Made by a program: the position numbers and the translations under genes. Shown piece after piece: positions 4,434-15,202 of a stretch of 22,286 nt of DNA (its first letter is position 1; every line of letters begins with the position of its first letter). This stretch comes from a virus. The notes under the pieces were generated by a model, which ran no database searches, had not been told where the DNA came from, and saw only the letters and a list, made by a program, of their open reading frames with translations. The stretch lies in IMG/VR virus record IMGVR_UViG_3300050010_000090, positions 1 to 22,286 of that record, one strand, 5' to 3'.

Positions 4434-5092
4434 TGTATCTCCCCTGGCAACCTCACATAAAGATGCGTTCTCTTGCTCGGCGGAACAAGACAAATTCCGA
4501 TAAGAAATCAAGCTTTCGATATGAGACGTTAGATGATTTTACTAAAGCCATTGGGGAATATTTCTACGGACTCGGCAAGGGCGAGCGTAAAGACGAATTT
4601 CCTACAGTCACTGGATTGTCTATTTTCCTTGGATTAACAACTCAGGCGTTCAACAATCAAATGGCAAGGGGTGAGGATTGGGCCGAAGTTGTTGGTATAG
4701 CCAAAGAATCCGTCAGGGAATACGCCACGCAAACCGCGCTTTATCATATCGCCCAAATAGCCCATCAAGACATTCGGAAACTCTACGATGAGAACGGGAA
4801 CCTGAAGCCGGTTCATAAACTCGATGACGACATCGCCGGGGCCGTCTCCTCCATTGAAGTAGTGACGAGCTGGTCAAAGGACGAAGAAGGTAATTCGGTC
4901 GCCGAGTATACCAAGAAGGTGAAAACGTGGGACAAGGGGGCGGCGCAAGAGCGGTGGGCTAAGCTGTACGGATTGGCGGCAGTGGAAAAGCATGAAATGA
5001 AACATACCGGCAAAATCGGCATATCAAGCCTTCTGGACGAGATAGATGGAAGCACAAGAGGACTACCTACGAGCCAAACAGATTCTGAGTGA
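4433..5092 (+). CDS. terS: terminase small subunit
   Basis: This 219-residue protein has the two parts expected of a small terminase. The N-terminal region contains LDDFTKAIGEYF and TVTGLSIFLGLTTQAFNNQ (residues 33-75), a helix-turn-helix-type DNA recognition region. The C-terminal part has IRKLYDENGNLKPVHKLDDD (114-133), GAVSSIEVV and KVKTWDKGAAQERWAKLYGL (162-181), a signature widely found in Terminase_2-type small subunits. It would recognise the packaging site and recruit the large subunit. The start overlaps the previous stop (TAATG), and its 3' end overlaps terL by 47 bases. Confidence 0.82.
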   Translation: MYLPWQPHIKMRSLARRNKTNSDKKSSFRYETLDDFTKAIGEYFYGLGKGERKDEFPTVTGLSIFLGLTTQAFNNQMARGEDWAEVVGIAKESVREYATQTALYHIAQIAHQDIRKLYDENGNLKPVHKLDDDIAGAVSSIEVVTSWSKDEEGNSVAEYTKKVKTWDKGAAQERWAKLYGLAAVEKHEMKHTGKIGISSLLDEIDGSTRGLPTSQTDSE

Positions 5093-6542
5093 CCAGTACG
5101 AAAGGCTTAATAATCTCTACTGGATCATCGATGAGCACGGGCAAAAAGTAAAATTTAAACTCAACTGGGCGCAAGAGGAATTCTATCGGCAAATGTGGTA
5201 TTTAAATCTCATATTGAAAGCCCGTCAACTTGGATTTACTACGTTTCTGTGTATCTTTATGCTCGATTGCGCTCTATTCAATTCCAATGTCGAATGCGCC
5301 GTTATAGCTCACACTATTCAGGATGCCGGGAAGATATTCGAGCACAAGGTTCAGTTTCCATACAACAACCTCCCGGAAACAATTAAGGCGGCAAGGCCAG
5401 CCGATACCGATAATGCCAACGAACTTGCATTCTGCAATGGATCGTCAATTCGGGTTGCAACGTCCGTCAGGTCCGGAACCCTTCAATATTTACTCATAAG
5501 CGAGTTCGGAAAGATTTGCGCAAGGTTTCCAGAAAAAGCGAAAGAAATAGTAACCGGCTCTCTTAACACGGTCCATTCCGGCAATTTCGTGTTTATCGAA
5601 TCGACAGCGGAAGGCAGGGGTGGCTATTTCTATACTTATTGCGACTCAGCACAAAAAGCAGCGCAAGAGGGCAGAAGCCTTACGAAAATGGATTATAAGT
5701 TCCACTTCGCGCCCTGGTGGAGACATCCGGATTACACGCTTGATGATTGCGAGAGTGTAGTTATCCCAAAGGATTTGCGGGACTATTTTGAGGAAGTCGA
5801 ACAGAAAATAGACATCGCCCTAACGTCTGGTCAAAAGACTTGGTACGCTAAAAAACTCGCAACACAGCAAGACGAAATGAAGCGCGAGTTTCCGTCTACC
5901 CCGGAAGAGGCTTTTGAGGCGGCGATCCAGGGAGCCTATTATCGAAACGAAATGACGGAAGCAAGACTTCAAAAGCGCATAACGGAGGTCCCTTTCGATC
6001 CTCGCTTGCCGGTAAATACTTATTGGGATCTTGGCATGGATGATTCCATGACGATCTGGTTTTGGCAGCTTCATGGTCAAGAGATCCGAGCTATCAACTA
6101 TTTCGAGCATAACGGCGAGGCCATGGGGTTTTATAAGCGCAAACTCGACGAGATAGCCAAGGAGCACCGGTATCGTTATGGTTCTCATTATGGCCCGCAT
6201 GACCTCAATGTCAGGGAACTTGGGCATGAAAAGACGAAGACCCGATGGGAGTCGGCGAAGAACATGGGCTTAAACTTCCAGATCGTACCGCGCATTTCGA
6301 AAGAGCTTGATGGCATAGAGGCCGTAAGAAAAATCCTTCCTCGCGTATGGTTTGACAAAGAAAAGTGTGAGCGCGGAATCCTCTGCCTCGATAATTACCG
6401 AAAAGAGTGGAATGAAAAGTTTGGCGTGTTCTCCGACCGTCCGGTTCACGACGAGTTTTCGCATGGGGCGAAAGCTTTCGAGACGGGCGCACTTGCATTA
6501 ACCCGAAAAGGATTCTTCGATGGCGTTGCACTTGCTTCATAA
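5046..6542 (+). CDS. terL: terminase large subunit
   Basis: At 498 residues this is normal for a TerL. The ATPase half has a deviant Walker A, KARQLGFTT (58-66), Walker B LLISEFG (149-155, catalytic E153) and the coupling segment IESTAEG (184-190). The RNase H-like nuclease half begins with TYWDLGMDD (325-333, D328), followed by GPHD (383-386) and HDEFSHGAKAF (468-478). It forms the motor that pumps DNA into the prohead through the portal and cuts the concatemer. ATG 5046 lies inside the terS 3' end. Its stop overlaps the next gene by 23 bases, so these genes are probably translated together. Confidence 0.93.
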   Translation: MEAQEDYLRAKQILSDQYERLNNLYWIIDEHGQKVKFKLNWAQEEFYRQMWYLNLILKARQLGFTTFLCIFMLDCALFNSNVECAVIAHTIQDAGKIFEHKVQFPYNNLPETIKAARPADTDNANELAFCNGSSIRVATSVRSGTLQYLLISEFGKICARFPEKAKEIVTGSLNTVHSGNFVFIESTAEGRGGYFYTYCDSAQKAAQEGRSLTKMDYKFHFAPWWRHPDYTLDDCESVVIPKDLRDYFEEVEQKIDIALTSGQKTWYAKKLATQQDEMKREFPSTPEEAFEAAIQGAYYRNEMTEARLQKRITEVPFDPRLPVNTYWDLGMDDSMTIWFWQLHGQEIRAINYFEHNGEAMGFYKRKLDEIAKEHRYRYGSHYGPHDLNVRELGHEKTKTRWESAKNMGLNFQIVPRISKELDGIEAVRKILPRVWFDKEKCERGILCLDNYRKEWNEKFGVFSDRPVHDEFSHGAKAFETGALALTRKGFFDGVALAS

Positions 6543-6804
6543 TAAGACTGAGCTTCAAGGTATGGTCATGCACAATTTTCTCGGCCAGATCGTAAAAGAT
6601 ACCGACGCGGCTTTGAATAAGGTTCTCAAGGAATGCCACGCCATAAATGTGTTTGTGACAATGACTGACCTGTTCAGATCTGGACGGCTAACGATTACAA
6701 ACGCCTACGCGCTCGATGCTGATTTCGAACTGGACGGCGAACCCATACTTTTCAGGCGCCGGGTGGGAACCGAAATTGTTTATTACGAGCAGGACCCGAA
6801 TTGA
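6520..6804 (+). CDS. hypothetical protein downstream of terL
   Basis: This 94-residue protein starts inside the terL end, with AAAGG upstream of ATG 6520. The N-terminal half is helical (NKTELQGMVMHNFLGQIVKDTDAALNKVL), and the C-terminal half is beta-rich (LFRSGRLTITNAYALDADFELDGEPILFRRRVG). The ending VYYEQDPN overlaps the next TTG start. No family is recognised. Its position between terL and the capsid-staple-like gene suggests a packaging or head role, which is inference. Confidence 0.7.
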   Translation: MALHLLHNKTELQGMVMHNFLGQIVKDTDAALNKVLKECHAINVFVTMTDLFRSGRLTITNAYALDADFELDGEPILFRRRVGTEIVYYEQDPN

Positions 6805-7418
6805 TAAAGTCCCGCTTCACTGAAAAGGGATTTAATACCGAGCAGGAAGAATACTTCCACGACGATCTGACCGGCAGGGATTACGGCCTGATTATCGGTG
6901 GTATGGCTTGGCCGACAGCAGATGGTGGCGCTGCGGTAATCATTGCGGAAGAATTTGACTCCGATCAGATTTGGATAGTGACCGATTGCGATGGGATGCC
7001 GGGGAACATATTCAAATTCATGTCGGGGGCTGCGAAGAGATGGATGTGCAAACGGTGGTATGGAAACGGCTTTGATGAAGCCTATATGCAGATGCTACAC
7101 GATTGGAACCGCACCCATTCGGGGATTTCCAGGATTGGCTTAATTGATGCGCCCTTTGTGGAAGAGCAAAACTCGACGCCTGTTTACTTCCAATTCATCC
7201 GGGACTATGCGCCGAAACTTCATGACGGGACCGATTCTGATTATTCCGGGAAGCTCTCTTCTGTTGCCGAGGATTTGCGGGTAGAGAAAAACGAAGGTGA
7301 ACATTTCGTGTCTGTCCTTGCTCTTGGTTATGCGCTGGCGGCTTACAGGATTTATCGACGCGGGCAGGCGGCATTCAACGTTGAAGTTGAACCTTTCGAT
7401 GAAAGAGGAGGGATATGA
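6801..7418 (+). CDS. hypothetical protein, possible RNase H-like fold
   Basis: A TTG at 6801 overlaps the previous TGA (TTGA junction); no ATG is better placed. The 205-residue product has alternating strands and helices: YGLIIGGMAWP, AAVIIAEEF, QIWIVTDCDGMPGNIFKFM, then RIGLIDAPF and HFVSVLALGYALAAYRIYRR. This order recalls the C-terminal nuclease half of large terminases, but the first catalytic Asp expected after strand 1 is absent (GGMAW), so activity is doubtful. It may be a structural paralogue or an unrelated head protein. The relationship is weak and comes from visual comparison only. Confidence 0.6.
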   Translation: MIKSRFTEKGFNTEQEEYFHDDLTGRDYGLIIGGMAWPTADGGAAVIIAEEFDSDQIWIVTDCDGMPGNIFKFMSGAAKRWMCKRWYGNGFDEAYMQMLHDWNRTHSGISRIGLIDAPFVEEQNSTPVYFQFIRDYAPKLHDGTDSDYSGKLSSVAEDLRVEKNEGEHFVSVLALGYALAAYRIYRRGQAAFNVEVEPFDERGGI

Positions 7419-7765
7419 AAACCGATCTAACCGACCTCAAACGCCCAAAGCCGAAGAAATCAACCGGCAAAGACGCGCCAGAAATAGTATCCCATGACTA
7501 CTACGACAAATACCCTTACGGCTTACGGCTTTCTCTTTGCGATGAAGAGCTTGAAAAACTTGGCATCGACGCCGGTAAACTCACAACCGGGACCGAGATT
7601 ACCATCAAGGCAACCGGCCAGATAACCGAGATACGGAACAGCAAAGAGATACGAAACGGCAAGACGGAAAAAGATCAACGGGTTGAAATTCAAATCCAAA
7701 AGTTAAGCCTTGCCGATGACGGTAATTTCGATGATGGGTTTAAGGAAGACGGGGAGGAAGACTAA
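7415..7765 (+). CDS. capsid-staple-like protein
   Basis: This 116-residue protein overlaps the previous gene as ATGA (ATG 7415) and has AGAGGAGG just upstream. The core YPYGLRLSLCDEELEKLGID (33-52), then TTGTEITIKATGQITEI and the strand RVEIQIQKLSLAD, matches a small beta-fold family that I recall being annotated as capsid staple protein in tailed phages, thought to bind across capsomers. The acidic tail NFDDGFKEDGEED (104-116) carries the F-D-x-G-F peptide also seen in two other head-region proteins. The assignment comes from memory of the family consensus. Confidence 0.68.
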   Translation: MKTDLTDLKRPKPKKSTGKDAPEIVSHDYYDKYPYGLRLSLCDEELEKLGIDAGKLTTGTEITIKATGQITEIRNSKEIRNGKTEKDQRVEIQIQKLSLADDGNFDDGFKEDGEED

Positions 7766-7954
7766 TTGAGCAATCTCGTTGAAAGCTGGCTAAAGTCTCC
7801 AGGCTCCGGAAGTCTGAAGCTCAATAAGGCTAAAAACAGTAACGAGTTAATTGCAAGCCTTAACGCAAGGCTCGATAATGACTTTGATTCGATCACGATC
7901 AAGCGGGGAAAATTCGGGTATATCATCAACATAGATAAAACCGTCGAACCATAG
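7766..7954 (+). CDS. hypothetical 62-residue protein (TTG start)
   Basis: The TTG at 7766 directly follows the TAA of the previous gene and has GGAGG 7752-7756 at 9-nt spacing. The product MSNLVESWLKSPGSGSLKLN then has a helix (NELIASLNARL) and two strands (FDSITIKRGKFGYIINID). It is a small alpha/beta protein without a known family. It is the last gene before the intrinsic terminator, so it ends the packaging transcription unit. Confidence 0.6.
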   Translation: MSNLVESWLKSPGSGSLKLNKAKNSNELIASLNARLDNDFDSITIKRGKFGYIINIDKTVEP

Positions 7955-7993
7955 CAGCTATTTATTTTTTCCATTAGGATAACCTAAGAAAAT

Positions 7994-8035
7994 GGGCTCC
8001 TTTCTCCCGTGCGGGGATTGGGGCCTTTTTTATTT
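7994..8035 (+). terminator. intrinsic terminator between packaging and head genes
   Basis: GGGCTCC (7994-8000) pairs with GGGGCCT (8020-8026), with G-U pairs, around an inner UCCC/GGGG hairpin, followed by T-tract TTTTTTATTT (8026-8035). Upstream A residues 7989-7992 can extend the stem against the T-run. It lies 40 bases after the 7766-7954 gene and just before the portal ribosome site. It should end or attenuate transcription before the head module. Confidence 0.72.
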
Positions 8036-8048
8036 GCGGAGCCAAGAT

Positions 8049-9953
8049 TTGGCAGAGCTTAACAAATCACGGAGCCTTGTGTCGTATGTGAAGGAAGTTT
8101 ACGACAACTTCAAGCAGCAACGACAGCCCTTAGAGGATATTTGGGAGCTTTCCTACGATGCTTTTCTCGGAAGGTACTCTCAATCGAATCTTGCAAAATG
8201 GAAGGCGCTAGAGGGTCACGATTGGCGTAGCAAGGTCTTTATCCGCTTTGCGCGGCGCAAGGTTTTAAGTTCTGTTTCTCAGATAAACGACATTCAGTTT
8301 CAAGCCGGCCAGATGCCTTTTAACATCACGCCTGCCGATTCGCCAAAAGGGCAGTTCCCTTTACCCGAACAAATGATCGCCGAACGCGCTCTGAACATGA
8401 AGCAGAAAATATCAGGATTTTTGCAGCTTCAAAAATACGATCACGCGCTTATGGCCTCAAACCTTGAAGCCGCAATCTACGGGATGAGCGTTCATAAGGC
8501 CCCGGTGGTCCGTCAAAGAAAAGACCTGTCCTATCAATTCAGGCCTCCACTTGTGGCTTCCTGGCTTCCGGCCCCCGTTCAGTTAATGCTTGCCTCGAAA
8601 TTCGGGCGGCACGTCCCAGTTGAAAGCATGATGAATATCCCGCTCGTCGAGCATGTGAACCTATGGGATTACTTTTGGGACCTGGAAGCAACAGAATATG
8701 AGCCCGGCCTTGCAGATATTCAGCGCGTCATGATGGATTCGGGCATGGTGCGAAGGCTCGAAGATATGCCGGGCTATGACAAGAGTGCAATCAACCAGGC
8801 GCTTTCGGCCTATCAGGATACGATCACTCAGGGCGCTGACTCAAGTGAGTCCCCCGGAAGGCAAAGACTCGAGTGGAGACGGCGCGGGATAGAGGTTGTG
8901 GAGTTCCGTGGGCGCGTTCCCGTTGATAAGTTGGGAGATCACAAGGACCGGATTTTGGCGCAGACAGAAGCCTCTCAGCGTGGCAAGGAACGCGAAATCA
9001 TAACCGTCATTGCCTTTGTCGCTGGCGGGAAAAACCAGACAGAACCGGGCATTGAAATCTATCCGGCGCAACCCAATCCTTTCCCGCTTCAAGCGCGCGG
9101 TTTCCATAAAGCATATTGGGAAGTTCTGCCTCACGAAAAGCAAGGCGTGGGGATCTGCGAGAACGTGCAAGACTCTCAGATCATGCAGAATGGATTCTGG
9201 CGGGCCTTTATAGATAGCGCCGCACTTTCCAGCAACCTTGTCCGGTTCTATAAATCCGGGGCCTTCAAGCCGGGGCAGGACATGAACATGCGACCGGGCG
9301 CGGGGTATGAGTTGGAAGATTGGGTAAGATCGGTTTCAGATGCCGTGACATGGGTATCGCCGCCTTTTATCGGTGGCCAGATGATCGAAGCGTTAAATAC
9401 TGCCGAAAGAATCGGGGATGAAGAGTCGGGCGTTCCTCGCATGATGCAGGGCGAACGCAGCAAACAGGCTCCGAAGACCGCCTTTGAATCCTCACAGCTT
9501 CTTGAATCTGCCAATAAGCAGCAGGGGCAGATCATAAAAAACATCGACGAAGGCCATATCGAGCCGGACGTAACTGCGATTTACCACTACCTGATGATGA
9601 CCGATCCAAACGAAGCGATCAAGGGGCAGTTCGAAATACAAGCAACGGGCTTTGCGGCGTTTAACGACAAGATGCGTAAGGGCATGGCGGTTCAACAGCT
9701 TTTTGGAATGTTCATGGGAAGCGATAGGACGGCGTTTCTTGTTAAGGTTGATGCGAACATGCGGGAACTCTACAAGCTGCGTGACCTTGACCCGGATCAA
9801 TTCATGCTCTCCGAAAAAGAAATTCAGCAGGAAAAAGAACAGGCCATGCAGATGGCAGCGCAAGCCGGGATTGCTCCGCCTCCGGGGCAAGAACCTATTG
9901 GACCGCCGCCAAGCCAAAATCCCATGATTCCGGGAGGACCGCCAAATGGATAA
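8049..9953 (+). CDS. portal protein
   Basis: A long protein with WELSYDAFLGRYS near the N-terminus, WRSKVFIRFARRKVLSSVSQ, several aromatic-rich segments around NLWDYFWDLEAT, a central FVAGG-containing beta region, and a late helical part (TAERIGDEESGVPRMMQG, AFESSQLLESANKQQGQII), which is the pattern of podoviral portal/head-tail connectors. The C-terminus is Pro-rich (APPPGQEPIGPPP). I choose TTG 8049, with GGAG 8038-8041 at 7 nt, giving 634 residues starting MAELNKSRSLVSYVKEVYDN. The in-frame ATG at 7992 lies in the terminator hairpin and lacks a ribosome site. It forms the dodecameric gate at one capsid vertex and docks the terminase. Confidence 0.85.
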   Translation: MAELNKSRSLVSYVKEVYDNFKQQRQPLEDIWELSYDAFLGRYSQSNLAKWKALEGHDWRSKVFIRFARRKVLSSVSQINDIQFQAGQMPFNITPADSPKGQFPLPEQMIAERALNMKQKISGFLQLQKYDHALMASNLEAAIYGMSVHKAPVVRQRKDLSYQFRPPLVASWLPAPVQLMLASKFGRHVPVESMMNIPLVEHVNLWDYFWDLEATEYEPGLADIQRVMMDSGMVRRLEDMPGYDKSAINQALSAYQDTITQGADSSESPGRQRLEWRRRGIEVVEFRGRVPVDKLGDHKDRILAQTEASQRGKEREIITVIAFVAGGKNQTEPGIEIYPAQPNPFPLQARGFHKAYWEVLPHEKQGVGICENVQDSQIMQNGFWRAFIDSAALSSNLVRFYKSGAFKPGQDMNMRPGAGYELEDWVRSVSDAVTWVSPPFIGGQMIEALNTAERIGDEESGVPRMMQGERSKQAPKTAFESSQLLESANKQQGQIIKNIDEGHIEPDVTAIYHYLMMTDPNEAIKGQFEIQATGFAAFNDKMRKGMAVQQLFGMFMGSDRTAFLVKVDANMRELYKLRDLDPDQFMLSEKEIQQEKEQAMQMAAQAGIAPPPGQEPIGPPPSQNPMIPGGPPNG

Positions 9954-10161
9954 ACGCGAACGTCATAGAAAAATAGCAAGTATGCAGGGCTCGGAAAACT
10001 GGGCCGCGGTTGTCGAGGAATTAGAAGAGCAGGAGAAAAACGCTTTTGAGGGGCTTTTAAACCATATGGCTCCTGAAGCTGTGATTGGAACAGTGCTGAT
10101 TCTGCGAAAGATCAAAGCCTTGCCGCAGATAGCCAAGAACCTTTTAGGTAAAGGGAGTTAA
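9946..10161 (+). CDS. hypothetical 71-residue helical protein
   Basis: ATG 9946 overlaps the portal end by eight bases and has GGGAGG at 9932-9937, well spaced. The product MDKRERHRKIASMQGSENWAAV... is entirely helical in appearance, with an acidic stretch EELEEQEKNAFEGLL followed by an Ala/Val/Leu segment and a basic C-terminus KNLLGKGS. No family is recognised. Small genes between portal and scaffold are usual in phage head operons, so a head-assembly role is possible. Confidence 0.62.
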   Translation: MDKRERHRKIASMQGSENWAAVVEELEEQEKNAFEGLLNHMAPEAVIGTVLILRKIKALPQIAKNLLGKGS

Positions 10162-10165
10162 GGAA

Positions 10166-11605
10166 ATGTGGGAAACCGAGGTCAACAAGAAAAGATTCAC
10201 TGACCTGATAACGTTGTCGGCTCAAAATGGGATCATCGCAGGGACAACCCGAACACGTGTCGGCGCTACTCCGTTAATCGCGCAACTAAACCGCGTCGCC
10301 ACCTCAACCGCTCCGAGTTCGGGTACGATTCTTGGTGACGGTGTTTTACTTCCGCCTTCGATGCCGGGGATACCTGTTCTTCTTTACAATTCTACGGCCA
10401 ATCCTATTCAGGTTTACGCTCAAGGGGCGGACACGATAAACGGCGTTGCCGGGTCAACGGGTGTCCCAATTCCGGCCTATGATATTGCCCTTTTCATGTG
10501 CGCCGGCGTTGGTTCATGGGGGTTCGAAGCCGGTGTCGGCTCTTCCGGTTCGCTTAATACAGTCCTTTCCTGTGACAATATCACCGCTTACGCTTCTGGT
10601 GGCCAGGCAAGCGCAACGCTTCTTCCCGGTGACATCAACCGTATCACCACGGCAGCGGCGGGAAGTTCAATCAAGTTGCCTGCGAGCGCCCCCGGCCTCG
10701 ATATTTACGTTATCAACCACGGCGCCAATGCTGTTCAGGTATTTGGCTCCGGTACAGACACCATCAATGATATCGCCACGGCCACCGGCGTATCTCAGAT
10801 GGTGGGAAGCATGACTTTGTATTCATGCTCTACCGCAGGCGCTTGGTATTCGAATGGCATAGGCGAGGGCTATGTTGGATCGCTCATGACACAGAATTAC
10901 CAGACCGGCGTGTCGGCGGCAGGGACGACGCAAGCAACCGGAACACAATTAACAAACCAGATCGCGATTGTTACCACGGTTGGCGCTAATGCTGGCGTAA
11001 ACTTGCCGGGGACTGTTGTAGTTACCACTTCACAGTCTGCCGGTCTCGAATGCGCAGTCGTGAACCTCGGCGCGAACCCCTTGTTTGTATATCCCCCACA
11101 GGGCGCAACCAGCGACACGATCAACGGGCAAGCCTCAACGGCTGGCGTTATAGTAAATCCCGGCACAACCGCGTTCTTCACCTCCGGATCAAACGGTGTC
11201 TGGACAGGTTCTGGCGCATCGACGCAAATGGCTGTTTCAAACACTATTGCCTCGGCTGCGTCTCTTACATTGACTACGGCAGTTCTTACAGGCGGCGTGG
11301 CTTCGGTTGATTGTACGATTACCGGCTCTACCGCAGTAACCACTCTTGTGACTGATTCGGCAGTGAACATAGTCAAGGCGCTTCACTGCCCGGTTGTTGG
11401 CACCTCCTACCGACTGAGAATCATCAATGTGTATACCACTGCTACATCCGCGCTTACGGGCGGATCAGGCGTCACCGTCAATAGTGCAGGCTCTGGCGGG
11501 GTGACAATTCCTTTAAGCGGTTGGCGTGAATTCGTCGTGAAAGTAACCAACGTGGCGGCTCCAGCAGTCACAATCACATCTGTTGCAACAGGAACCTGGA
11601 CATAA
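10166..11605 (+). CDS. triple-repeat beta-domain protein (capsid decoration / head fibre candidate)
   Basis: This 479-residue protein is Ala/Gly/Ser/Thr-rich with almost no long helices after residue 30. It contains three tandem copies of a roughly 80-100-residue beta module: residues 41-120, 158-228 and 267-348. Each has the pattern LP-x(3-5)-G-(L/I)-x-V-x-N-x-x-(A)NP/AxQV-x(3)-G-x-DTIN-x(2)-A-x(2)-TGV, with DTIN at 89, 198 and 317, and closes with G-x-W. The C-terminal domain (about 355-479) differs. This repeat is common in phage structural proteins of unknown detailed role. AAGGGAG upstream is well spaced. Its place between portal and scaffold points to a head-surface protein. Confidence 0.72.
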   Translation: MWETEVNKKRFTDLITLSAQNGIIAGTTRTRVGATPLIAQLNRVATSTAPSSGTILGDGVLLPPSMPGIPVLLYNSTANPIQVYAQGADTINGVAGSTGVPIPAYDIALFMCAGVGSWGFEAGVGSSGSLNTVLSCDNITAYASGGQASATLLPGDINRITTAAAGSSIKLPASAPGLDIYVINHGANAVQVFGSGTDTINDIATATGVSQMVGSMTLYSCSTAGAWYSNGIGEGYVGSLMTQNYQTGVSAAGTTQATGTQLTNQIAIVTTVGANAGVNLPGTVVVTTSQSAGLECAVVNLGANPLFVYPPQGATSDTINGQASTAGVIVNPGTTAFFTSGSNGVWTGSGASTQMAVSNTIASAASLTLTTAVLTGGVASVDCTITGSTAVTTLVTDSAVNIVKALHCPVVGTSYRLRIINVYTTATSALTGGSGVTVNSAGSGGVTIPLSGWREFVVKVTNVAAPAVTITSVATGTWT

Positions 11606-11723
11606 AATCGAACAGTAAAAGGCAAGTAAACCTTAAATCCTGAAGGCCCCTTTTTCTAAAGGACTCGTGCGGGAGCGCCCCTAACGAAAAAAGGATTCGC
11701 CGCAAAGGAAGGGAAAGACCGTA

Positions 11724-12614
11724 ATGGGAACTCAAAACATAGATCAAGAAGCTAACGATTTTGACGGCGGCTTCGATGAAAAGGATGGAAAAGATGGCAA
11801 AAGCATCGAGCAAGAGGGAAGGCGGTCACATGATTCCGGGGATGGTCCCGAGCAAGCCGGGGACGAAATTGACCGGGGGCAAGAAGAGCAGCAAGGGCAA
11901 GAAGAGCAAGTAGAACCAAAACCGGAAGAAACCGTAGATTGGAAGGCTAAGGCCGAAGAAACCGAAAAGCGGGCCAAGGACAACCAGGCCGCTTTCACCA
12001 AGAGCCAACAGGAACTTGCTGAGACTCGAAAAAAACTCGAAGAAACTGAGGGCAAACTGAAACCGGCAGGCGCTCAAGAGCCTGAAGAGTTCCAGTATCC
12101 TGATGAAGTCGCTCAGTTTTTTAACGACTTCCCGGAAGCCAAGGCCGCAGTCGGTATTGAAGCGGAACGGATCGCGGCAAAGAAAATAAAAGAACTCTTT
12201 GGCGACATCGATGCCGGGAAACTGAAAACGGTTCAGGATACAACTTTCGCGCTTCAGTGGGAGAACACGGTAACTCGCGGTTACTATGACGAGCAGGGAA
12301 ACTATGTTCCTGGCGTTCAGGACTACTACGAGATTACCGCGCAAAGCAATAAACCCTATTGGGACTGGTACGCTTCCAAGGGTTACGCCGGGTGCGACCC
12401 GGTAACGGCTATTGCGCGGCTCAAGGAATGGAAGACCCTAAAGGAAGTCGAGCGAGTAGCAAGCGAAGCTGGTAAGGGCGATCAGGCTGCAAAGGACCGC
12501 GCCAAGCAAATAGAGCGTGCGGCCTCCGGTAGTCTTCCGAGTTCACAGCGGCGCGTTTCGGGTGAGCCTTCAAAGAAGGATGAAAACGATTTTGACGGGG
12601 GATTTGACGATTAG
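11724..12614 (+). CDS. scaffolding-like protein
   Basis: This 296-residue, very acidic and Gln/Glu/Lys-rich protein lies directly upstream of the major capsid gene, the usual scaffold position. Residues 58-115 form a long charged coiled coil (WKAKAEETEKRAKDNQ, FTKSQQELAETRKKLEETEG). A more ordered middle contains EVAQFFNDFPEAKAAVG and YYDEQGNYVPGVQDYYEI. The ends match each other: NDFDGGFD at residues 11-18 and NDFDGGFDD as the last nine residues. AAGGAAGGG gives the ribosome site. The scaffold role is inferred from composition and position; no protease is seen nearby. Confidence 0.72.
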   Translation: MGTQNIDQEANDFDGGFDEKDGKDGKSIEQEGRRSHDSGDGPEQAGDEIDRGQEEQQGQEEQVEPKPEETVDWKAKAEETEKRAKDNQAAFTKSQQELAETRKKLEETEGKLKPAGAQEPEEFQYPDEVAQFFNDFPEAKAAVGIEAERIAAKKIKELFGDIDAGKLKTVQDTTFALQWENTVTRGYYDEQGNYVPGVQDYYEITAQSNKPYWDWYASKGYAGCDPVTAIARLKEWKTLKEVERVASEAGKGDQAAKDRAKQIERAASGSLPSSQRRVSGEPSKKDENDFDGGFDD

Positions 12615-12672
12615 TTAAACAACTTATATTCCATCGCGCTGAAGACGGGCGGGACGCTCTAAGAAAACGGAA

Positions 12673-12704
12673 TCCCGGATGGCTTTTAAATAAGCTGTCC
12701 GGGA
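12673..12704 (+). terminator. strong hairpin upstream of major capsid gene
   Basis: TCCCGGATGGCTT (12673-12685) pairs over 13 positions, two of them G-U, with AAGCTGTCCGGGA (12692-12704) around the 6-base loop TTAAAT. A TTTTT run follows only at 12712-12716, after CCTTGCG, so termination may be partial. It could equally act as an mRNA-stabilising or processing element that sets the capsid mRNA level. Confidence 0.62.
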
Positions 12705-12761
12705 CCTTGCGTTTTTAACCTCCTTCTTTTAGCCGCCAGATGGAGAAGAGGGAGTAAATAG

Positions 12762-13766
12762 ATGGCCGATATAGAAAAATACGGAGACTTAAAACCGCGT
12801 GAGGCTGGTTACGCCTGGAAGGAGCTTTTAAAACGAGCTATTCCCGGCATGATTACCGAACTCGTTTTACAGGTAAAGCCCTTACCCAAGAAGAACACCG
12901 GAACCGTTATTTTTAGGCGGTACAACCGGATCAACCCGGCGCTTACGCCCTTGGCCGAAGGTGTGACCCCTTCCGGCGAAAAACCCACCTATACCGACGT
13001 TGTAGTCCAGCTTCAGCAATTCGGGGATTTTGTAGCTTATTCCGATGTTCTTGAAGACCTTCATCCTGACAATGTGGTACAGGAATACGGAAGCATTCTT
13101 TCTGAGCAAATGGCCGAAACGCGGGAACTGCTAAACATTTCCGGCATAAGCGCGGGCGTTACAGTCTATTACGGCAACGGTTCAGCGAGAAGTTCCGTCA
13201 ATACCTTCACCACAGTCGGCCAGCTTAAAAAGATCGTCCGATATCTGAGAATCCAGAAGGCGAAGCCAATCACGATGATTTTGAAATCGACTCCGAACTT
13301 TGCCAGTCAGCCGATTCAATCGTCCTTTGTAGCAATGTGCAGCACCGATTGCGTTGCCGACCTTGAAGCCCTCCCCGGCTTTAAGACTGTCGAGCAGTAC
13401 GGAAATCCCGACATGAGGCTTTCGGATTATGAAGTTGGCGCTGTTGCAAACATACGATTTCTCGCGACCTCTCTTTTCTACGCCTGGTCCGATGCGGGAG
13501 GCGCGGCCGGTTCCATGATAACGACCTCCGGAACCTACGCGGACGTTTACCCTATTTTTATTATGGGGCAGGACGCAGCCTGCACCGTTCCTCTTCGCGG
13601 AAACACTTCGGGCTATCCGATAGTTACCGGTACCAAGCCCGATAAAAGCGATCCTTTGGGTCAACGCGGTTCGGTCGGCTGGAAATTTTGGTGGGGAGGC
13701 GGGATTTTGTACGATCCATATTTTGCGCGTTTGGAATGCGCCGCGACTCTTAACCCAACGATCTAA
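12762..13766 (+). CDS. major capsid protein, N4-gp56 family
   Basis: This 334-residue protein fits the N4-gp56-type HK97-fold capsid family. Residues 44-62 include KNTGTVIFRRYNRINPALT, then LAEGVTPSGEKPTYTDVVVQ, QFGDFVAYSDVLEDLHPDN and EQMAETRELL. The C-terminal part has PLGQRGSVGWKFWWGG and LYDPYFARLE. It should form the icosahedral shell around the scaffold-like protein encoded just upstream. GAGGGAG precedes ATG 12762 with good spacing. Hairpins sit on both sides of the gene, at 12673 and 13791, so it may have its own stable mRNA. Confidence 0.92.
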   Translation: MADIEKYGDLKPREAGYAWKELLKRAIPGMITELVLQVKPLPKKNTGTVIFRRYNRINPALTPLAEGVTPSGEKPTYTDVVVQLQQFGDFVAYSDVLEDLHPDNVVQEYGSILSEQMAETRELLNISGISAGVTVYYGNGSARSSVNTFTTVGQLKKIVRYLRIQKAKPITMILKSTPNFASQPIQSSFVAMCSTDCVADLEALPGFKTVEQYGNPDMRLSDYEVGAVANIRFLATSLFYAWSDAGGAAGSMITTSGTYADVYPIFIMGQDAACTVPLRGNTSGYPIVTGTKPDKSDPLGQRGSVGWKFWWGGGILYDPYFARLECAATLNPTI

Positions 13767-13790
13767 GTTGTTGATATGGTTAGTATTTGA

Positions 13791-13825
13791 ACGGCAGGCC
13801 GGAACTCAAAACCGGCCTGTTCCGT
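13791..13825 (+). promoter_or_regulatory. hairpin downstream of major capsid gene
   Basis: ACGGCAGGCCGG (13791-13802) pairs with CCGGCCTG-TT-CCGT (13812-13825) in 12 base pairs with a two-base bulge and a 9-base loop AACTCAAAA. No T-tract follows; ATATCGAAAGG leads into the next ribosome site. It is more consistent with an mRNA 3' stability or processing element than with a classic terminator. Confidence 0.58.
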
Positions 13826-13844
13826 ATATCGAAAGGTAAATAAA

Positions 13845-14636
13845 ATGCAGACTCCCCAAATAGTTAGGGGAACCGGAGTGGGGACCGGCAGCATTATTGC
13901 TGTTGCCCTCGGCTTCATTCCCAGACACGTTGAGTTATGGAACGAGGTAAGCGGCGTTAAGGTCACATGGGATCAGCAATTCGGACTTGCCTACGCTCCC
14001 GGTGCGGCTCAAGGTATTAAAGAGAAGGGAACATCTTCTCCCACCAGGGTGCTTTTAAGTTCGGCAGGCATCTTGCCTTACCCTGGCGGTGACAGAATCC
14101 AGTATCTTACCTCAAGCGGGTATTGGAATCTCAACGCGCTGGTAAATAGTTCCCTTTTAGGCGCGCCTAGCCTTGGAGCAAACGCCAACCAGATATTCCT
14201 GGACGGCGATTGGGAAATCCCCGGCTTTACCACTACATCTTCAAGTTCCAATACCGTTGCAAGTTCGGGTTCTCTTACCTTTACCGTCCCCGGTGGTCTG
14301 CCCTGGTTGACGGTCGGCAGTTCCGTATTGATATACTCGACTGCCAGCCCGACAAACTATATGGTTGCCACTATCACCTCCTATTCGGGTACGTCCCTTG
14401 TTGTGACTGCCACGGGATCAGGCGGTTCAGGAACTCTCTCAGCATGGACCATCGAGCCTCAAAGCGCGAGTGGCGTTCAGGGCATAAACTACAACTGTGC
14501 GGGATTCGCCGTTGATCCTTCCGGCCAGAATCCATACAACGGAAGCGTTGTCGAAGTCCCGGCAGGGTTTATCCTCGGAACGGATAGTGACCTGAATTCT
14601 TCAGGCAATCAGATCGTCTGGATCGCCACCAAATAA
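13845..14636 (+). CDS. head-associated protein carrying a fibre-type beta module
   Basis: This 263-residue protein has an N-terminal part (residues 1-128) with GVGTGSIIAVALGFIPRHVE and LWNEVSGVKVTWDQQFG, a pattern I have seen in phage virion proteins encoded right after the capsid. Residues 129-203 look inserted: TSSSSNTVASSGSLTFTV, then VGSSVLIYSTASPTNYMVA, then TSYSGTSLVVTATGSGGSGT and W. This module is widespread in tail fibres and other virion surface proteins. The C-terminal part returns to the host protein (FAVDPSGQNPYNGS). GAAAGG upstream is the ribosome site. It may be a capsid decoration or vertex protein. Confidence 0.66.
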   Translation: MQTPQIVRGTGVGTGSIIAVALGFIPRHVELWNEVSGVKVTWDQQFGLAYAPGAAQGIKEKGTSSPTRVLLSSAGILPYPGGDRIQYLTSSGYWNLNALVNSSLLGAPSLGANANQIFLDGDWEIPGFTTTSSSSNTVASSGSLTFTVPGGLPWLTVGSSVLIYSTASPTNYMVATITSYSGTSLVVTATGSGGSGTLSAWTIEPQSASGVQGINYNCAGFAVDPSGQNPYNGSVVEVPAGFILGTDSDLNSSGNQIVWIATK

Positions 14637-14657
14637 ATCACAACAATATGGCCGGTG

Positions 14658-14683
14658 TGCCCTCGTCCATAACGGCGGGGGCA
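14658..14683 (+). promoter_or_regulatory. hairpin in spacer before the next head gene
   Basis: TGCCCTCGTC (14658-14667) pairs fully, with two G-U pairs, with GGCGGGGGCA (14674-14683) around the 6-base loop CATAAC. There is no T-run downstream. It resembles the capsid-flanking hairpins in stem length and loop size and sits just upstream of GGGAAAGGA, the ribosome site for the gene at 14705. Confidence 0.52.
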
Positions 14684-14704
14684 TGATCGGGAAAGGACTA
14701 TCCA

Positions 14705-15202
14705 ATGTCAGGCAAAAAAGATGAGAATTTCGATCAAGGATTTAACGAGCCGGCCGAAAGAGACCCCGGAACTTTTGAGGTTAGATCGACTCTTGATGAG
14801 GTAGTTGATTCAGTTCTAAAGAAACGTCCTAAAGAGGGGAAGAAAAACTACGATCTTCCGAAGAAGTGGGGGCTTGTCCGCCTGGAACAGAAACGGAGCG
14901 AACATGAAATAGACGACGTTCCGGTTTGCTGCAACGGTCACAATGTAATTCTTCAGCGCGGGATGTGGGTTCCGATCAATTGGGCGTTTATCGAAATCCT
15001 GAAAAACGCAAAATATCCGCAGTATGCCAATAAGCCGGGTGAGCAGAGAAAGGTTGTGGGCATGGTAAGCCGGTTCCCCTATCAAGGCCCCTTTGAACTT
15101 TCCGAGCAGGAATTCAATCATCTCAGAAAAGTGGCGCTCAAAGGTGAAATCCCGATAAAGGACTATCCGGAACGCTATCAAGCCATGATGGATGCCGCCT
15201 AA
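14705..15202 (+). CDS. hypothetical head protein with NFDQGF motif
   Basis: This 165-residue protein starts MSGKKDENFDQGFNEPAER, repeating the F-D-x-G-F peptide found in the scaffold-like and staple-like proteins. The middle part VPVCCNGHNVILQRGMWVPI and AFIEILKNAKY is compatible with a small beta-sheet head protein seen between capsid and neck genes in podoviruses, but I cannot name the family. Its TAA overlaps the next ATG (TAATG). GAAAGGA precedes ATG 14705. A virion or assembly role is inferred from position and the shared peptide. Confidence 0.68.
   Translation: MSGKKDENFDQGFNEPAERDPGTFEVRSTLDEVVDSVLKKRPKEGKKNYDLPKKWGLVRLEQKRSEHEIDDVPVCCNGHNVILQRGMWVPINWAFIEILKNAKYPQYANKPGEQRKVVGMVSRFPYQGPFELSEQEFNHLRKVALKGEIPIKDYPERYQAMMDAA

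Follow-up and report, generated by a model that had tools for sequence, protein, structure and literature searches.

A short terminal peptide shared by the scaffold and small head proteins of an N4-gp56-type phage, a candidate capsid-docking signal

We show here that a short acidic-aromatic peptide, FDxGF, stands at both ends of the scaffold-like protein and at one end of two further small proteins in the head region of a 22.3 kb virus record (the window, that is, the whole stretch of DNA analysed). By analogy with known scaffolds we infer that the peptide binds the capsid, and FDxGF is probably the docking peptide of this phage, common to the scaffold ends and the small proteins.

Peptide copies and their carriers in the window

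The window encodes 25 likely proteins, and in its six frames FDxGF occurs exactly four times, each time in a head gene; no other occurrence was found in any frame. The four copies, the genes that carry them and the capsid gene are as follows.

7415-7765, plus strand: Gp10-like small head protein, 116 aa, assigned by PF21628
7724-7750, plus strand: copy 1, NFDDGFKED, in the probably disordered C-terminal tail of the Gp10-like protein
11724-12614, plus strand: scaffold-like protein, 296 aa, net charge -25, assigned by position and composition
11754-11780, plus strand: copy 2, NDFDGGFDE, at the scaffold N-terminus
12585-12611, plus strand: copy 3, NDFDGGFDD, the last residues of the scaffold, followed by the stop codon to 12614
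12762-13766, plus strand: major capsid protein of the N4-gp56 family, the presumed partner in docking, assigned by TIGR04387 and PHROG 1357
14705-15202, plus strand: small protein, 165 aa, between the capsid and adaptor genes, listed for its N-terminal copy
14723-14749, plus strand: copy 4, ENFDQGFNE, at the N-terminus of the 14705-15202 protein

All four copies are thus present where the original prediction had placed them, with one correction, the end of copy 1, which had been set one codon short at 7747 instead of 7750. The Gp10-like protein belongs to PF21628 (E 7.7e-9, 36.2 bits against a cut-off of 27, residues 30-101) and is related to epsilon15 gp10. The scaffold-like protein is acidic and of low complexity, its gene lies immediately upstream of the capsid gene, and it gives a weak match to the head scaffolding family PHROG 9857 (E 3.6e-4). 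The major capsid protein is a member of TIGR04387 (E 1.3e-81, 274 bits against a cut-off of 60) and matches PHROG 1357 (E 8.5e-49); the portal and adaptor of the window give SU10-type matches. Further upstream, in the stretch 5046-7418, the large terminase matches two separate PHROGs, one per half, and two small genes of unassigned function with very few relatives (6520-6804 and 6801-7418) lie between the terminase and the Gp10-like gene. A reverse-strand reading frame at 535-903 looks by eye like the end of an insertion-sequence IstB-type ATPase.

The copies are terminal, and the tails had been presumed to be disordered. In agreement with this, the AF2 model of the Gp10-like protein has a core with pLDDT about 90 and residues 108-116 under 50, and the model of the 14705-15202 protein has a low-confidence N-terminus (pLDDT about 57), so that both ends are probably disordered as modelled. 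Structure searches with these two models gave no match at E <=0.001, and therefore neither fold indicates where its protein is located. A single-protein search of viral contigs with the same two proteins returned only an overlapping contig (L003) or nothing.

One account of the recurrence is chance, or the biased composition of tails that are acidic and disordered. When the 25 likely proteins were shuffled, FDxGF occurred 0.044 times on average, or 0.061 times when shuffling was confined to 20-residue blocks that preserve the acidic tails, and none of 5000 shuffles contained four. If the post-hoc choice of pattern is allowed for, 2 of 200 shuffled proteomes had an equally rare pattern in at least three genes, which is moderate only and leaves some room for chance. 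Judged on the window alone, the recurrence is suggestive; on the sequences of relatives, described below, it becomes decisive.

Phage-specific matching of scaffold and small-protein tails

About 80 relatives were fetched by their capsid proteins, by way of a three-sequence capsid alignment; a profile of nine capsid proteins contained no stretch conserved enough for scanning. In these relatives the protein encoded upstream of the capsid gene usually has two related peptides, one close to the start and one at the end. An expectation-maximisation search over 57 representatives converged on the motif [DN][DE]F[DE]x[AG][FW] and put the share of scaffold ends with a copy at an estimated 90%. In other versions of the peptide the two scaffold copies change together (W/W, LWNEEAD/LWNYEAK, DDEFEKYL/DADFKKYL), and E. 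coli phage N4 gp57, which is in the scaffold position, has one copy close to either end, MSDEEILNMP towards the start and MSDEDFMKLP towards the end. The two-ended layout also occurs in relatives retrieved via the terminase, some scaffolds among them being apparently one-ended. When N- and C-terminal copies were compared in 67 clusters, own pairs scored 28.6 against 21.9 for swapped pairs (z 9.8), with z 9.7 in 39 clusters and z 7.2 in 30 clusters below 35% identity; the clusters, here and in the Gp10-like comparison below, are partly related by descent, and the z values overstate the count of independent events. This limit does not touch the switch of peptide type between lineages, where AFYP or LY types accompany epsilon15-type capsids and F-x-x-[AG]-[FW] types accompany N4-gp56-type capsids, nor does it touch the epsilon15/PAT1 recombinant described below. 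Scaffold control regions retain a weak within-genome signal (z 0.9 to 3.9), a point in favour of composition bias, and composition thus accounts for a small part only of the matching between the two scaffold ends.

The same holds for the Gp10-like protein. Homologs of the window protein have the peptide of their own scaffold at the same C-terminal place, and so do the homologous proteins of phages with other peptide types:

epsilon15: scaffold-position protein ends SDLISAFYPKK, Gp10-like protein ends KELKDAFYPDGEDD
phiV10: scaffold ends RSAAEVLYGK, Gp10-like protein ends KSAAETLYGNGGE
BPP-1: scaffold ends DARRLYAASNMNP, Gp10-like protein ends AAQRLYGASSMSA
BcepC6B: scaffold ends ARAAKLYDKS, Gp10-like protein ends QRAAKFYANTPTT
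CP2: scaffold ends WNRMYPDM, Gp10-like protein ends YARMYADDPSMKD

Across 32 clusters, epsilon15 and BPP-1 included, the Gp10-like C-terminal tail scored 27.7 with its own scaffold tail and 18.5 with swapped ones (0 of 20,000 permutations, z 8.7), and three control regions showed no matching to the own scaffold (z -0.4 to 0.3). Of 5080 gene ends scanned without bias against the tail of their own scaffold, 28 reached z 5 or more, and 22 of these were Gp10-like C-termini. Apparent tandem double copies of the tail were seen in several Gp10-like proteins (for example RATALYGAG...LSNALYGGG), namely those of L130 (ctEw122), L149, L150, L151, L164, L177, L192, L205 and L212.

Reading the epsilon15-type proteins in this way requires a word on annotation. 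The scaffold-position protein of epsilon15/BPP-1 phages (L014:5224-5940, PHROG 458) is labelled 'protease' in PHROGs and in sequence records, a label that is probably wrong. No Pfam protease match was found for it, and because of this, together with its position and composition, we treat it as the scaffold. The record of Limnohabitans phage DC33 (L134/L138, PQ492659.1) is classed in the Inoviridae, yet it has an epsilon15-type tailed-phage head operon, in which the scaffold reading frame is apparently shifted near its end.

Using a motif matrix built from scaffolds on 1875 genes, we found 22 non-scaffold ends with at least 13 bits, compared with 0.3 expected from shuffled ends. Nine of them were scaffolds missed by the automatic choice, and the other 13 comprise 12 small head-module proteins and one terminase-like protein, the single exception to carriage by small head-module proteins. 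The search of N4-gp56 relatives that had been proposed with the original prediction thus found enrichment at scaffold ends and at small head protein ends. Absence from close relatives, or an equal rate in non-structural proteins, had been named as grounds for dismissing the idea; instead, relatives have phage-specific versions at the scaffold ends and at the C-terminus of a small head protein, and the strong non-scaffold copies are, apart from the one case just given, in small head-module proteins. The comparison of own and swapped tails, with its null control regions, and the excess of motif-matrix counts over shuffled ends both argue against chance or composition bias, which as a general account is now most improbable. 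A chance origin of the scaffold and Gp10-like copies is refuted by the own-versus-swapped tests; for copy 4, a chance origin is possible.

Recent duplication of DNA was rejected as the source of the likeness. The codons had been said to differ among the copies, and 4 of 8 indeed differ between the two scaffold copies of the window. Tail pairs of relatives have the codon in common at 173 of 385 identical residues, with 177 expected, a sharing that is not above chance. Hence, the likeness of the tails is maintained at the protein level.

Other small proteins present a mixed picture. The core family of the 14705-15202 protein is present in about 100 relatives, and the N-terminal copy is mostly missing there, so that conservation of the peptide in this third carrier is not borne out. 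In the window itself, copy 4 scores 17.3 bits with the motif matrix, and its context KKDENFDQGF is closely like KKDENDFDGGF at the scaffold C-terminus. Nearer relatives were sought among TerL-related contigs, none of which had a Gp10-like protein. A second small family, 82-105 residues long and gathered by its core only with the tail excluded, occurs at about 46 loci between the capsid and small-protein genes and has the motif at the C-terminus in 22 of 28 clusters (0.9 expected). Its tails do not match their own scaffold more than others (z 0.07), in a test of low power given a near-invariant motif. An 85-residue protein (L013:5600-5857) ends in QAMNQGFKSVRGGGMYGA, close to DAFTKGFNSIR of its own scaffold, and is possibly another type of carrier. 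No third carrier was seen in N4 and several other genomes, the C-terminus of the N4 virion RNA polymerase, considered as possible cargo, does not have the scaffold peptide, and among T7 protein ends examined by eye none resembled the end of gp9.

Exchange of the scaffold tail with the capsid cassette

The Salmonella phages epsilon15 and PAT1 have the host species in common and are nearly identical in portal (99%), adaptor (99%) and scaffold body (94%). Identity falls to 44% in the capsid protein, 39% in cement, 41% in gp9 and 46% in the Gp10-like protein, and the last 20 residues of the scaffold are 32% identical. At the DNA level, the two phages are 93-98% identical over most of the scaffold gene; the figure is about 76% for the 180 bases of the gene that follow and about 55% once the last 20 scaffold codons are reached, and it is back at 97% in the adaptor gene. 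The Gp10-like tail lies at the far end of the exchanged cassette. By these sequence comparisons epsilon15 and PAT1 are natural recombinants, in which the scaffold tail, capsid, cement, gp9 and the Gp10-like protein were exchanged together, and since the scaffold tail adjoins the capsid gene, its exchange could partly reflect the accidental place of the crossover. Thus, the tail travels with the capsid cassette and not with the host, the portal or the scaffold body. Consequently, host, portal and scaffold body are disfavoured as partners of the peptide, the capsid protein is the likeliest receptor, and cement and gp9 are the alternatives.

This bears on three other readings. Terminal acidic aromatic peptides are common as signals for host adaptors, and a chaperone, protease or adaptor of the host that handles assembly proteins might read this one. 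Such a host factor is very improbable, given that enterobacterial phages differ in their peptide (AFYP in epsilon15, AAxxLYG in PAT1 and phiV10, MSDEDF in N4) and that the peptides of epsilon15 and PAT1 differ despite the same host species. The peptide could also be an element of scaffold self-association, its tails binding a folded part of the scaffold; the scaffold has two copies, and the small proteins could enter the scaffold core via the same contact. If the scaffold body were the receptor, tails that differ on bodies 94% identical, as in epsilon15 and PAT1, would be unexpected, and we regard self-association as improbable. Somewhat less so, and still unlikely, is a partner elsewhere in the cassette, cement or a gp9/14705-type protein, that binds the peptide and gathers the scaffold and the Gp10-like protein. 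The genes for cement and gp9 did move with the capsid gene in the epsilon15/PAT1 exchange, but in known cases it is the capsid protein itself to which a scaffold tail binds, as in 80alpha (PMC5644958) and, as summarised in PMC12749128, in D3 and others. In addition, phages with quite different accessory genes retain the two-ended scaffold motif.

A putative capsid-docking peptide and its relation to known systems

We therefore return to docking at the capsid protein as the preferred reading, in which the major capsid protein would be the partner and the site would presumably be the interior one used by known scaffolds. A two-ended scaffold could hold two capsid subunits with one molecule during procapsid assembly. 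The Gp10-like protein, whose flexible C-terminal tail bears the peptide as well, would be directed to a capsid-protein site of the same kind, and the N-terminal peptide of the 14705-15202 protein may bring that protein there as well. The small proteins would then dock alongside the scaffold, or take its place as it leaves, and may hence compete with or succeed it, and the peptide and its binding site would change together from phage to phage. The original prediction of a docking peptide for the capsid lattice is thereby favoured, apart from its staple label.

The label had been given to the first carrier, which is the Gp10-like protein of PF21628, and it descends from an assignment of Gp10 to outer density of epsilon15 that a 2022 re-analysis judged likely wrong (PMC9207676). 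A protein of 130 residues suits that density better than Gp10 with its 111 (PMC9207676); annotated epsilon15 gp8 has 130 aa, and a similarity to Bbp16, the cement protein of BPP-1, is noted for it. A 2025 paper places epsilon15 gp10 on the inner surface (PMC12391199). The description of PF21628 as 'Major coat protein-like' apparently goes back to the same disputed staple assignment. The closest counterparts of the window carrier, epsilon15 Gp10-like (PF21628) and BPP-1 Bbp20, have a homologous core and a C-terminal tail that copies the tail of their own scaffold. They differ from it in having an AFYP/LY-type peptide, whereas the FDxGF of the window is of the kind seen in other N4-gp56-type scaffolds.

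The T4 capsid targeting sequence and the cargo peptides of encapsulins are short terminal peptides by which proteins enter a shell of the HK97 fold; we know of neither as being common to both ends of a scaffold. In P22, 80alpha and the D3/HK97 scaffold domain, one end of the scaffold attaches to the inner side of the capsid protein (PMC12749128); among the passages located on such scaffolds, none describes a two-ended copy or its sharing with other proteins. The nearest parallel is in 80alpha, in which the C-terminal hook of the scaffold binds a capsid cleft and SaPI1 CpmB competes through the same hook, a common C-terminal RIIK at the same capsid site (PMC5644958). As in that system, a small head-assembly protein here has a short C-terminal peptide that is also found in the scaffold. 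In contrast, CpmB is encoded by a satellite and changes capsid size, whereas the carriers described here are the phage's own small head proteins; their peptides are of FDxGF or LY types, in phage head operons, and not RIIK. A further difference from 80alpha is that the scaffold N-terminus has the peptide too and that, over many lineages, each phage has its own version. By analogy, the window carrier may work like CpmB, though we do not class it as CpmB.

A broader reading, which we put forward tentatively, is that at least two capsid lineages use a phage-specific docking code, in which one capsid site would be read by both scaffold ends and by an accessory protein that succeeds the scaffold, the parts co-evolving and being exchanged as a cassette. 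If this is true, members of the Gp10-like family would be internal head proteins that mimic the scaffold, and not outer staples, and the family gains a testable role now that the staple assignment has been questioned. Contacts between scaffold and capsid protein are known from structures of few phages, and scaffolds are too diverged for alignment; a phage-specific repeated peptide allows the docking site to be approached from sequence in many uncultured phages. The peptide also suggests a way for phages to swap capsid cassettes and keep the scaffold body.
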